DNA from: Sulfolobus acidocaldarius SUSAZ
GTDB taxonomy: Archaea > Thermoproteota > Thermoprotei_A > Sulfolobales > Sulfolobaceae
Length of the DNA stretch: 64,000 nucleotides
Reading direction: 5' to 3'
Assembly (NCBI GenBank): GCA_000508305.1
Contig: CP006977.1
Location: forward strand, 1,582,621 to 1,646,620
Part shown: piece after piece, positions 54,420 to 60,863 of the stretch
Numbering within the stretch: position 1 is the stretch's first letter
Layout of the letters: each line of letters begins with the position of its first letter
Position numbers and translations under genes: made by a program
Notes under the pieces: generated by a model
What the model was told of the DNA's origin: nothing
What the model saw: only the letters and a program-made list of their open reading frames with translations
Database searches by the model: none

Positions 54420-54770
54420 ATGAATAATGAAAACTTTCAAGAAACAATGATCGGAGATTTAATAAATGAGCCGTTCACAGAAGAAAATATTGATCAGAAA
54501 TTTGGGCGTGCTCTTATATTTTTAACTTTTGGAATCTATGAAATTTTATATGAGGATGATTTGGATAAGGTAATGGTAAAAGCTAAAGCGCTGGATGATT
54601 TGAATAAGGCAATTGATCAAGTAAGAAAAATGACCGCAGAGGAAATTATTGATGATTTGGTAACCGAACCTTTTACTGAAGAAAATATTTCACTAAAAAT
54701 GGTTGAGGTATTTCTAATATTACAAAATGGAATTTTAGAGCTTATTTCAGATCTGAAAAAGAATTCATAG
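54420..54770 (+). CDS. Small acidic protein with two internal repeats
   Basis: 116 residues. Two halves are clearly duplicated: IGDLINEPFTEENIDQKFGR and IIDDLVTEPFTEENISLKMV, each followed by a hydrophobic helix (ALIFLTFGIYEIL, FLILQNGILELI). Mostly alpha-helical. No family known to me. TATA-like ATTTATATAAG is about 45 bp upstream, giving a leader of about 20 nt without an SD. Could be a small helical-bundle protein that dimerises within itself. Confidence 0.65.
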   Translation: MNNENFQETMIGDLINEPFTEENIDQKFGRALIFLTFGIYEILYEDDLDKVMVKAKALDDLNKAIDQVRKMTAEEIIDDLVTEPFTEENISLKMVEVFLILQNGILELISDLKKNS

Positions 54771-55977: not shown

Positions 55978-56598
55978 TCACACCTTCAAGTGCTTAAAGT
56001 TAGTCAGTCTCAATTTCTCCACAATATCCTCTAAAGCTCTCTCCTTAAGCTCCTTCACCCTCTCCTCATCAAACCCACCATCTTTTCCTAAACATATCTT
56101 GTCGAACAGATAGCTGTCCCTCATACTTCCCAGTTCCTGCGATATGTCCTTCAGCACATCTGAGCTCAGGTCAAGGCTCTCCACTAGGAACCTCACTTCC
56201 CTCACTATCTTCCTAATAGAGTGAAACTCCACCTCCTCCCTTAACCTCCTGTAGTCGTTATAAATCCTCTCCACAACTAAAAGTCTGCTCCCGTAAAGTC
56301 TTGGGAGCAGGTACTTCCTCATGATTTGAAACATACTCACAGTCTCCCTAGCTAGTTCATCTCTGCTATTACTCCTGACACAGGCTAAGATGTCCATGTC
56401 CCTTATCTTCCCAAGCCTTTTCATCAACCTACTTGCCTTTAACACGCATTCAGGGTTGTTGTGTAACTTATATGTTGTTCTGGCTATTATCAAGTACTTT
56501 CTGAGCTCTACCCTAGCGTCGTGTATATCCTCCTGAGATATACCTGTTATAAGGAGGAACTTAATAAGGTGAGCGTTGGCATACCTTTCAGGTGTCAA
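55978..56598 (-). CDS. CHAD-domain protein (polyphosphate-binding)
   Basis: 206 residues. DIHDARVELRKYLIIARTTY and MKRLGKIRDMDILACVRS are the conserved His/Arg-rich blocks of the CHAD domain, whose basic helical bundle binds polyphosphate. Last gene of the five-gene operon; overlaps the upstream kinase-like gene by 11 nt. In other organisms CHAD proteins localise to polyP granules. Many basic residues line the helices, which fits polyP binding. Confidence 0.8.
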   Translation of the reverse strand: MTPERYANAHLIKFLLITGISQEDIHDARVELRKYLIIARTTYKLHNNPECVLKASRLMKRLGKIRDMDILACVRSNSRDELARETVSMFQIMRKYLLPRLYGSRLLVVERIYNDYRRLREEVEFHSIRKIVREVRFLVESLDLSSDVLKDISQELGSMRDSYLFDKICLGKDGGFDEERVKELKERALEDIVEKLRLTNFKHLKV

Positions 56599-57220
56599 TT
56601 TTTAGCTCCTCCCTCACTAACCTCTCTATCTCTCTATTCACTTCGTTCACGTTGTTTTTAGTAACTAGGACATTTGGGGAAATCGACTTCAAGCGACTCT
56701 GAAACTCCTTCACATACTTCCTGTACGCCAAAAAGGTGTCTTCTTTCACGTTCAGGTCAACGCTCTCACTCAGCGGGTCAAGAAACCCCTTCCTCTTTAT
56801 CATCCTCCTCATTATCTCTGTGGGGGGCGATATCAATGAAATTGAGAGGGATGCCTTAGGCAGTACTGAGAGTACTCCCTCGACCCACTCCCTCTCCAGT
56901 CTCCTGGTCAGAGCCCAAGCCTCCAGTGTCAGGACATAACCATCAGCTATAACAATAAAACCTGAGTCCAGTGAGGGCTTCACTAAATTCTCAGTCTGGT
57001 CTGCTAGGTCAGTTACATAGGCTAAGAACAGTGTCCTTCTCTGGAAGACAATGTCCCTCTTAACACTTGCAATAGCGTCTGCCATCAGCTTTGACGACTG
57101 TATACCTATGGTTGCCACCACATATCCCCTGTCCTCTAGGTAGTCCCTTAAGCTCTGGACGTGAGTGGTCTTACCTGAACTCATTATACCCTCTATGGCT
57201 ATAATCCTTCCCTTCTCCAT
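56588..57220 (-). CDS. Thymidylate-kinase-like P-loop protein (second copy)
   Basis: 210 residues. Walker [13 protein letters not shown], a [19 protein letters not shown] motif where thymidylate kinases have DRY, and a basic lid region ([17 protein letters not shown]). DGY in place of DRY and no TREPGGT motif argue against ordinary dTMP kinase. Overlaps the first kinase-like gene by 22 nt and CHAD by 11 nt. With Ppx and CHAD beside it, a polyphosphate or nucleotide-phosphate transfer role is likely; which one cannot be told here. Confidence 0.7.
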
Positions 57221-57840
57221 AACTCCATCACCTTCCCCCTAATCTCACTCTGTACTTGTCTCGGATCCTTTGTGCCGTCAACTACAACAAAGTTGTTCTC
57301 CTCAGCTATCCTGTCGTAGACCTCTATGATAGACGACTGGTACTTTATGAAACCCTCCTCAGGGGTGAGGTTAGGGAATACATCAGCCCCAGCCTCTGTT
57401 GGCTTGATCTGTCTCCTTGAGCTCTTCAACCTCTTCAGTGCTACCTCAGACGGAACCCTTATGTAAAAAGTGATGTCCGGCTTAACAGCAAAGGAGTAGA
57501 GCTTCTTAACCCACTCAATGTCAACCCCCCTCACACTGTCCCTTGCATAGGCAGTGTATATGTACCTGTCGGCTATTACAATGAACCCACACTTTAACAT
57601 GGGTAAAATGTACTTCTCATACCTGTCGGCAAAGTCAGTTGCGTGGATCAGGCTAAAGGTCAGTGGGGTCAATAGGTTCTTCTTCTTAGCCTCCTTTATG
57701 ATGTCGTGTATCCACTCAGATGAGTTCCACTCTGTTATGAAAGTGTACCTCCTCTTTGACAACCAGCTCTTGAGCAGAGAAGCCTGACTTGACTTACCCG
57801 AACCGTCTATCCCCTCAAAGGCTATGAGAATCCCCTTCAT
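57199..57840 (-). CDS. Thymidylate-kinase-like P-loop protein (first copy)
   Basis: 213 residues. Walker [18 protein letters not shown] motif [16 protein letters not shown], and lid [16 protein letters not shown] with several basic residues. The usual dTMP-binding TREPGGT is replaced by TEWNSSEW, so it may not use dTMP. It starts within an ATGA overlap with the ppx end (57837-57840). Two unlike TMK-type kinases between exopolyphosphatase and CHAD genes suggest a polyphosphate kinase; I recall crenarchaeal work proposing such a kinase here but cannot verify it. Confidence 0.7.
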
Positions 57841-59072
57841 AGCACACCAGCCACTGACGACTCTACTACCCTCCTTATCTCCTTCCCCTTCTTCAGGACT
57901 TCAGACTTGTTTGTGACACTCTTCAGTGAGCCTAAACTCTTTTTCTTCAACTCCCCAGTAGAGGCTTTACACAAGAGGGACACCATGACCATTTCACTTG
58001 CCGTAAACCCAGGTACCACAGCGTATTTGGTGAATTTGTGGCACATTTCATATGGATCTAAAAACCCTGTCATCCTCATTATACCTGATATATATGACGC
58101 CACCTTCATATACTGGTCAGAGAAGTAGTTGTATAACTCCCAGGGCGGATCCACATTAAACCAGTAAGCTATTGACTCTAACCACCTCTCCCTGGGGTTG
58201 TCAAAGACTCTCTCCATCAGGACACCTTCTCTCAGACCAAAGGATGAGATCATGATCGTTGGACTGTCTAACGCGTTCCCTAACTCCTCAATAACAACTG
58301 AGGCTGTGTGTACTGTGTATGACCTCTCTTTACTTATCCCAGGTAAGTTCTCCCTCTCCTCTGGGTCAAGGTTCATTAACACCTTAGAGTACTTACCTAT
58401 CTGTTTTGTCTTTATTACATAACCGTGGATTGACTTAAGTGGAAAGGCTGATACTCTGGCGTCCATTTTCGCTATTGCCCTTATATTCCCCCCTGAGCCG
58501 ACCAGTACTCCCTTTATGGGTTTTAACACTGAGAGCTCACTCCTTATCCTCTTTCTAAGCTCACTCTCGTCCTTCAGCTCTCTAGCTAATTTCAGTGCCC
58601 CAAGGTCAAAGTGGTAAACCTCCTTCACCTGCCTAGAGTCAAAGTAGACCACTTCAAGTGACCCTCCTCCAAGGTCAAACATTGCCCCTGAGTCCACAGG
58701 GAGAGTATTCAGCACACCTACGGCAGACATCTCCCCCTCTTCTTCCCCTGTGAGGACTCTCATCTTAACCCCAATAATCTCTGACAGTAGTTCAGCAACC
58801 TGGTTGCCGTTGGATGCATACCTGAAAGCACTTGTCCCAACTAGTTTCACGTCCCTTATACCCATCTTGTTAAGTATTGCCCTAAATGACTTGAAGACTT
58901 TCTCAGCTTCGTTTACCCTGTCAGGAGAAATGGGGGAGCCCTCCTTTACCCCCTCTCCCAGCCTCAAGAACAACTTCTGGGAGCCTAAAATCCTGAAAGT
59001 CTGGTTTGGGAAAAGGTCGTAAATACACAATCTTGTGGAGTTATAACCTGTGTCTATTACCGCATATCGCAT
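57837..59072 (-). CDS. ppx: Exopolyphosphatase (Ppx/GppA family)
   Basis: 411 residues. [33 protein letters not shown] with the catalytic Glu, and [15 protein letters not shown] (phosphate loop) are the ASKHA/Ppx motifs; [11 protein letters not shown] is the later glycine block. The C-terminal ~110 residues are a helical domain ([20 protein letters not shown]) in place of the long HD domain of bacterial Ppx. Splits Pi from the ends of polyphosphate. Starts one base after the sixA stop. Confidence 0.85.
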
Positions 59073-59549
59073 TCACATCAACTTCATTACCTTCTGGTTA
59101 AGTAGTAACTTCAACTGCCCTTTACCCTCCTTGGAGTCATACTCCACAACGGCAAGGGCACCCTTCTTCATCTCCACATTACCCCCACATAGGCTCTTTA
59201 TCAAGTGGGAGAGAAAAGGCTCATGCCCCACAATGAGGATACTTATGTTGTCCAGGTCTTTGAGTCTGTTTATGAACTCAATCGGGTCCCTGTCAGGGTT
59301 GAGCTCATTAAGGGTCTCTATCTTGCCCTGGTCCTCACCCAACTCGTCTAATATGACTTCAGCACTCTGATAAGCCCTCATTAACGTACTGGTCAGATAC
59401 CTGTCGATTGTGTAGTCCATCTGGTCAAGTAATGACGCGACTCTCTTCATCTGCTTTATACCTTTCTTTATGAGTTTCCTGTCCTTGTCATCAGTACCGT
59501 CCACCTGGGGCTCAGCCTCCCCGTGTCTAACTATGATTAAATTTATCAT
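59073..59549 (-). CDS. sixA: SixA-type histidine phosphatase
   Basis: 158 residues. LIIVRHGEAEPQVDGTDDKD is the RHG catalytic motif of the histidine phosphatase superfamily; STLMRAYQSAEVILDELG and IVGHEPFLSHLIKSLCGGNV hold the second Arg and the catalytic His. SixA removes phosphate from phosphohistidine. First gene of the operon leading to Ppx, two kinase-like proteins and CHAD, so it may act on a phosphorylated intermediate or on polyP-related modification. Promoter in the AT-rich sequence near 59560-59580. Confidence 0.8.
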   Translation of the reverse strand: MINLIIVRHGEAEPQVDGTDDKDRKLIKKGIKQMKRVASLLDQMDYTIDRYLTSTLMRAYQSAEVILDELGEDQGKIETLNELNPDRDPIEFINRLKDLDNISILIVGHEPFLSHLIKSLCGGNVEMKKGALAVVEYDSKEGKGQLKLLLNQKVMKLM

Positions 59550-59705
59550 AATGTATAATAGTTCTCTAAAGTAATAAGCTTTTTCAACTTATACTATAGA
59601 GGGCTATGTATTTGCCTAAACCTCTCTAATTCCCTGACTTTGTCCAACTTACACAGTAGAGGGGTGTCATGAAGAATTTAATATCCCCTCACACTAGAGT
59701 ATAGT

Positions 59706-60863
59706 GTGATCCTTACCTCAGACCACGCCACCTATCACTCCTTACCCTCCCTCCCCCTGAGGCTCATACCTGACTTCTTCCCCGGGAGTAAATACCCTCC
59801 TTATGGCTTGAGAAAAATAGAGAGTTTAGTCAACGGTGTTGTCGTCCCACCTCACAGGATAGAGAGATACTTGAGGACAGACAGAGTGTTGGGAATTTAC
59901 GTTAATGACCCCTTAAACCAGACTGAAGTCTCTGCAAAGCTCTCTGAGATATTTGGAGGAGACCCACCCTACGTGTTCCACACATTCCAGGAACTGTCGA
60001 GGAAAGTCTCCGAGTTAAAGGAGAAGTATGACTTCAAGGTAATAGTAGGTGGTCCTGGTTCATGGGAATTTTCACTTAACACTCCAGAGTGGGTTGATAC
60101 TGTGCTAATGGGGGAGGCGGAGGAGACACTACCTAAACTGCTTAAAGAGGGTAGTGGTCCTCTACCTAAAGTAGTGTATGGGGAGAGGGCAAAAAATTTC
60201 ATAGCCATCAGGAGACCCTCTTCGAATGCAGAAGTAGAGGTCAAGAGGAAGGACAGGAAGATACCCCTAGAGGTGGTTAAGGCAGAACTAGAGGTCCAGT
60301 CGAGGTATCACAACTACCTTAACCTGATATCGGATGACCTGCTCTCTTATGGCACAGAGGACGAAGTCTTAGGTCTCCTTAGGTTAGCCTCTAGTTACGG
60401 TAATAAAAAGGTTGTATTTTCTCAAATAAGCGCTGAGTCGTCATACCGCTTCCAACTGAACAAGATCAGGGAAGTCCTCAGGCTAAACCAGGATAACTGG
60501 AGGTCCCCTCTCTTGGTCAATCGACCAAACTCCTGTGTTTTAGGTGAGATAGACACTGGGGTGCTCAAGGAATTGAACAAGAACTTCATTTACCCCATGA
60601 TGTATGTACCTGAAGAGAGGGTTGGGGACTTCATGGACTATAAAGTCCTTTTAATCCCATTACCTCAGACCGAGAAGTTTTACGATGTTTTATATAAGTG
60701 CTGGGTTCACGATAAGGGGGTTTTGAGGATGAGGTTTAGCAGGGTTATCGACTACGTGTTGGACAAGAACAGGGAGACTAGGGGTGAGTACTTGAAGAGG
60801 TTGAAGATTAGAGGTGTCCATGTCTTCAACCTGGTCTTACTTCTCCTTAGGTCATATAAGTAA
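59706..60863 (+). CDS. B12-binding-domain protein without a radical-SAM cluster
   Basis: 385 residues. The first ~150 residues resemble the cobalamin-binding domain found before radical SAM domains (KVIVGGPGSWEFSLNTPEWV, DTVLMGEAEETLPKLLKEG). Where a radical SAM CxxxCxxC motif should follow there is IPLEVVKAELEVQSRYHNYL with no Cys; only two isolated Cys occur later (NSCVLGE, YKCWVHD). So it looks like a derivative that lost the 4Fe-4S cluster yet kept the rest of the barrel (DDLLSYGTEDEVLGLLRLAS). Function unknown. Divergent from the polyphosphate operon. Confidence 0.6.
   Translation: MILTSDHATYHSLPSLPLRLIPDFFPGSKYPPYGLRKIESLVNGVVVPPHRIERYLRTDRVLGIYVNDPLNQTEVSAKLSEIFGGDPPYVFHTFQELSRKVSELKEKYDFKVIVGGPGSWEFSLNTPEWVDTVLMGEAEETLPKLLKEGSGPLPKVVYGERAKNFIAIRRPSSNAEVEVKRKDRKIPLEVVKAELEVQSRYHNYLNLISDDLLSYGTEDEVLGLLRLASSYGNKKVVFSQISAESSYRFQLNKIREVLRLNQDNWRSPLLVNRPNSCVLGEIDTGVLKELNKNFIYPMMYVPEERVGDFMDYKVLLIPLPQTEKFYDVLYKCWVHDKGVLRMRFSRVIDYVLDKNRETRGEYLKRLKIRGVHVFNLVLLLLRSYK

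Follow-up and report, generated by a model that had tools for sequence, protein, structure and literature searches.

Introduction

Lacking PPK1 and PPK2, Crenarchaea still accumulate polyphosphate, and the identity of their synthase was an open question until lately. Hofmann et al. are said to have described an archaeal family 3 polyphosphate kinase in Sulfolobus acidocaldarius (bioRxiv 2024, 10.1101/2024.08.28.610084; JBC 2026, 302:111283). Two later papers credit Hofmann et al. with a distinct PPK-type enzyme of Crenarchaeota, in S. acidocaldarius (PMC11677633, PMC13318637); going by these citing papers (Hofmann et al., 2024/2026), the recent crenarchaeal proposal that an earlier note on this DNA had mentioned was right in kind. 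In addition, a SixA-PPX-dTMP kinase-CHAD gene cluster of the Sulfolobales, conserved in biomining archaea, was published in 2024 (PMC10892726). The figure of that paper labels the kinase as a dTMP kinase, and its text says that the crenarchaeal synthase is still unidentified. The same genes make up the operon studied here, which lies in a 64,000-nucleotide stretch of the S. acidocaldarius SUSAZ genome (hereafter the window) and encodes two adjacent thymidylate-kinase-like proteins, T1 and T2. The core idea is largely already known: the gene cluster has been published and so, as described by the citing papers, has a polyphosphate kinase of S. acidocaldarius that belongs to a distinct family. 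What comes from the present analysis is the reading of the two kinases as paired paralogues, the systematic loss of residues in T2, and the pairs found in ammonia oxidizers and in one bacterium.

The genome nearest to the window (2,225,959 bases), which we take to be that of S. acidocaldarius DSM 639, encodes T1, T2 and Ppx proteins that are 100%, 97% and 99% identical to those of the window. The enzyme of Hofmann et al., as presented in the citing papers, is from the same genus, and at these identities of T1 and T2 to the presumed S. acidocaldarius genome we infer that it is one of the two kinases of this operon, T1 being favoured. The ppx gene of S. acidocaldarius is Saci_2018 (PMC7831078), and T1 and T2, by their adjacency to it, are presumably Saci_2019 and Saci_2020. 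A search of the literature for Saci_2019, Saci_2020, ST1543 or STK_15430 returned nothing on the enzyme beyond one structural study (PMC4748334). Based on the comparisons that follow, we are rather confident in predicting that the operon makes and breaks polyphosphate, with T1 as a polyphosphate kinase of thymidylate kinase (TMK) fold and T2 as its catalytically altered partner.

Organization of the operon

The polyphosphate operon reads sixA-ppx-T1-T2-CHAD on the minus strand, from 59549 to 55978, and its ORF positions leave no gap. The first gene, sixA (59073..59549), encodes a protein of the histidine phosphatase superfamily (TIGR00249, 96.4 bits, cut-off 74.5) and has a positional orthologue in about 20 Sulfolobaceae genomes. 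It abuts ppx (57837..59072) with 0 nt in between. The ppx product matches the Ppx-GppA profile PF02541 at 143 bits (cut-off 27), and scores 224.7 bits against the NCBI exopolyphosphatase model, which is under that model's cut-off of 307. The three remaining junctions overlap: ppx and T1 (57199..57840) by 4 nt, T1 and T2 (56588..57220) by 22 nt, and T2 and the CHAD gene (55978..56598) by 11 nt. Because the genes abut or overlap, they are likely to share one transcript and to be coupled in translation.

T1 and T2 both match the TMK family. T1, with its Walker A motif (SGKS) and DRY intact and its dTMP site lost, scores about 100 bits against the Thymidylate_kin profile, and T2, a paralogue with DGY in place of DRY, scores 43 bits (cut-off 27); against the TIGR00041 dTMP kinase model, T1 reaches 105.7 bits, above the cut-off of 83.25, and T2 stays below it. 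The last protein of the operon, which would be expected to bind polyphosphate, is a weak match to PF05235 (21.1 bits, cut-off 25.6). Its probable identity as a CHAD protein is nevertheless supported by positional orthologues in about 20 related genomes and by an ammonia-oxidizing archaeon, in which the product of the gene in this place reaches 85 bits as CHAD. The five-gene operon proposed in the earlier note is thus present on the minus strand as it was described, and the profile searches agree with the family names it had given (SixA, Ppx, two thymidylate-kinase-like proteins and, under its cut-off, CHAD). Chance or gene misprediction as the source of the operon is ruled out by its conservation across genera.

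Polyphosphate synthases and thymidylate kinases of the genome

The earlier note had found no PPK1 or PPK2 gene in the window, and this is true of the whole genome: in the complete sequence (2,061,920 bases; 2.06 Mb), neither the PPK1 profile (PP_kinase) nor the PPK2 profile has a match, and VTC is absent as well. The same genome has exactly three Thymidylate_kin genes, namely T1, T2 and an unlinked one at C1:667416-667946, which has the top score of the three (137.6 bits) and retains the EPF, ADR, DRY and AYQ motifs. Since this unlinked gene has the usual dTMP motifs, T1 and T2 would be unneeded for dTTP supply.

Residues and structure of T1

We aligned 31 T1, 31 T2 and 46 ordinary TMK homologues. 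The residues that recognize dTMP (the E-P motif, the Arg of ADR, and AYQ), which are present in 86-100% of the 46 TMKs, are gone from every T1 and T2. The Arg of ADR, a residue that contacts thymine in TMKs, is found in 100% of the 46 homologues; all 31 T1 have Phe at this place, and the T2 proteins have either Leu or Phe. In all 31 T1 sequences, E-P has become W-N/D and the Y-Q of AYQ has become R-D. The conserved Phe preceding ADR is replaced by His in T1. DRY is the only one of the four TMK motifs that T1 retains (31/31, one of them reading DRF), and the Walker A Lys and the DR pair are kept throughout. T1 has also gained basic residues that are invariant or nearly so (K52, K53, K54, R73, R100, R104, R128, which is R or K, K146 and R201), at positions where they are mostly missing in TMKs.

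The AlphaFold models of both proteins are confident (pLDDT 96.7 for T1 and 91.4 for T2). In Foldseek, the top ranks for T1 are TMKs and not PPK2, and its best PDB matches are four entries of ST1543, the T1 orthologue of S. tokodaii (2plr, 4nzy, 4rzx and 5h70), all named dTMP kinase. The best structural match of T2 is likewise ST1543. In the Dali table of the Francisella PPK2 (FtPPK2), the nearest non-PPK2 structures are 4NZY and 2PLR (PMC4748334), both of which are ST1543. T1 has likenesses on two sides. With thymidylate kinase (EC 2.7.4.9) it has in common the fold and the P-loop, and it scores above the family cut-offs, but it differs by its lost dTMP contacts and new basic residues, in a genome that has an ordinary TMK elsewhere. 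With PPK2 it has in common the P-loop kinase fold, the difference being that the genome has no match to the PPK2 profile.

Three points speak against T1 as a polyphosphate kinase: its score above the dTMP kinase cut-off, the TMKs at the top of its Foldseek ranking, and the publication of crystallised ST1543 as a thymidylate kinase. They leave two other readings of T1 to be weighed. It is scarcely credible that T1 is the cell's dTMP kinase, or a backup for it, as the annotation of the four ST1543 entries would have it: the third gene holds the complete set of motifs from which T1 has kept DRY alone, and the only ligand in the titles of those four entries is ADP. Alternatively, T1 could be a nucleoside or nucleotide kinase whose specificity has shifted, for instance to another NMP, and whose place in a polyphosphate operon is a matter of chance. 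Family scores and best structural matches go along with such an enzyme; we nevertheless judge it very unlikely, given the linkage to ppx conserved in both Sulfolobaceae and ammonia oxidizers, the loss of the base-recognition Arg together with the gain of many basic residues, and the absence of the other known polyphosphate synthase genes from the genome. The name 'thymidylate kinase' of S. tokodaii ST1543 may be a misannotation and, if T1 is the crenarchaeal synthase, proteins called thymidylate kinases, one of them with four PDB entries, are misnamed.

T2 and the ancestry of the pair

In T2, a catalytic residue is changed in 31/31 sequences, by DGY, by replacement of the Walker A Lys with Arg, or by both. 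DGY is found in 20/20 Sulfolobaceae T2, 13 of which additionally have SGR for SGK (the window's T2 combines SGKT with DGY), and the remaining 11, from outside the Sulfolobaceae, have SGRS with DRY. The missing dTMP motif in both kinases and the DGY of one, which had been picked out in the earlier note, are therefore real and conserved across relatives. As the Walker A Lys is missing in some ordinary TMK homologues too, its change, and sequence alone, leave the inactivity of T2 unproven. Nevertheless, T1 always has the full catalytic set and T2 never does, which makes T1 the likely synthase.

A different division of labour would have T2, or only the T1-T2 complex, synthesise polyphosphate, with T1 by itself acting as a nucleotide kinase on a different acceptor, at the expense of polyphosphate or ATP. 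The two genes, which overlap in the window, were never found apart in any genome examined, and T2 carries its own set of invariant residues; however, the Walker A Lys or the DR is altered in each T2 and in no T1, and we consider this arrangement unlikely. Our preferred reading remains that T1 is likely the catalytic polyphosphate kinase, of PPK3 type, and T2 likely a non-catalytic or weakly catalytic partner, as their residue patterns suggest.

In a maximum-likelihood tree (quick mode, SH-aLRT support), T1 and T2 together are set apart from the TMKs with support of 100, and divide into a T1 clade (support 93) and a T2 clade (support 97). Each clade has members from Sulfolobaceae and from ammonia-oxidizing archaea, together with a single verrucomicrobial sequence, so the duplication predates the spread of the pair. 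By this phylogeny, the pair consists of ancient paralogues.

Distribution and natural loss

The gene order recurs in 20 of the 25 Sulfolobaceae genomes, with T1 adjoining T2 in the company of ppx, CHAD and sixA, and the presence of T1 and T2 in the family is nearly all-or-none. Three genomes (G007, G008 and G016) are without T1, T2, ppx and CHAD, and a fourth (G002) has a diverged ppx and neither kinase nor CHAD. A fifth (G014, locus L084, G014:C21:8000-11845) has lost about 2.06 kb internally in comparison with its sister G005. The deleted segment spans the terminal part of ppx, T1, T2 and the beginning of CHAD, and its breakpoints have about 24 nt in common. A Fisher test of the pair against CHAD presence gives p ~0.0004, a value that is descriptive, as the genomes are related and non-independent. 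The ppx frame is broken in G005, where it is divided between two frames, and in G003; this may be decay or sequencing error. The 'same order' genomes outside the family each have just one, weak TMK match and no orthologue of ppx or CHAD.

The wider scans were samples and not a census. Among 300 Thermoproteota genomes, strong T1 matches were found in ten outside the Sulfolobaceae, with T2 adjoining each of them (L180-L189), and all ten genomes carry archaeal amoA. One of these ammonia oxidizers (L184, 5431-9743) has sixA-ppx-T1-T2-CHAD as in the window, next to pst and phoU-like genes of phosphate transport. Another (L180) retains ppx-T1-T2, and a third (L182) retains T1-T2, with sixA, ppx and CHAD nearby in another arrangement. 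If T1 is the crenarchaeal synthase, the paired partner and this occurrence in ammonia oxidizers would carry T1-T2 polyphosphate metabolism into marine and soil nitrogen-cycling organisms.

A tandem T1-T2 pair with a one-base overlap was also found on a Verrucomicrobiota contig (L095:4977-6454). Its T1 and T2 are 44% and 31% identical to those of the window, and its T2 has SGR as Walker A; ppx is absent from the 9 kb of contig sequence covered, and the same genome has Ppx elsewhere. Both verrucomicrobial genes group with those of ammonia oxidizers (53-57% identity for T1 and 51-53% for T2), a placement that is consistent with joint transfer of the two genes and speaks against contamination. A search of plasmids for the pair gave one weak tmk match only, and a search of phages gave none. 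Tentatively, and with the balance of our judgement leaning slightly against it, we propose that the synthase is an obligate T1-T2 pair of a two-subunit kind unlike PPK1 or PPK2, whose members stay together both in inheritance and in transfer in the Sulfolobaceae, the ammonia-oxidizing archaea and some bacteria.

Proposed function

The suggestion of the earlier note that one or both kinases may make polyphosphate is supported by the want of another known synthase, the separate TMK, the loss of the dTMP site, the linkage to ppx and CHAD, and the distinct S. acidocaldarius enzyme family described in the citing papers. The full catalytic set, kept by T1 and never by T2, narrows it to T1 as the likely candidate. 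In the mechanism that we envisage, T1 would work on ATP/ADP with its P-loop and DRY site, and a basic groove, formed where the dTMP pocket used to be, would hold the end of the polyphosphate chain. The terminal phosphate would pass between ATP and polyphosphate at the P-loop, probably in both directions; such a phosphotransfer by T1 is likely, as predicted from the residue patterns and the cited literature. T2, which would be translated together with T1, probably stands in for the second subunit in a TMK-type dimer, where its role could be to keep hold of the chain or to control the enzyme. The CHAD protein would bind the polyphosphate product, Ppx would degrade it, and SixA would act as a hydrolase of the histidine phosphatase type.

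Sequences flanking the operon

No RNA families near the operon and no tRNAs in the window were found in searches for them. A scan for sigma-70 promoters and terminators returned sites not above those of shuffled sequences, with a bacterial model that is ill-suited to an archaeon. Read directly, the intergenic region upstream of sixA (59550..59705, minus strand) separates it from a divergent gene at 59706, and an AT-rich, TATA-like stretch (aagcttattac) lies about 30 nt ahead of the sixA ATG, where it is a plausible leaderless archaeal promoter. The divergent neighbour (59706-60863) has a weak partial match to a B12-binding/radical SAM family. Elsewhere in the window, the gene at 54420-54770 encodes a 116-aa protein that has no Pfam match and looks like a short unit in duplicate (..EPFTEENI..).
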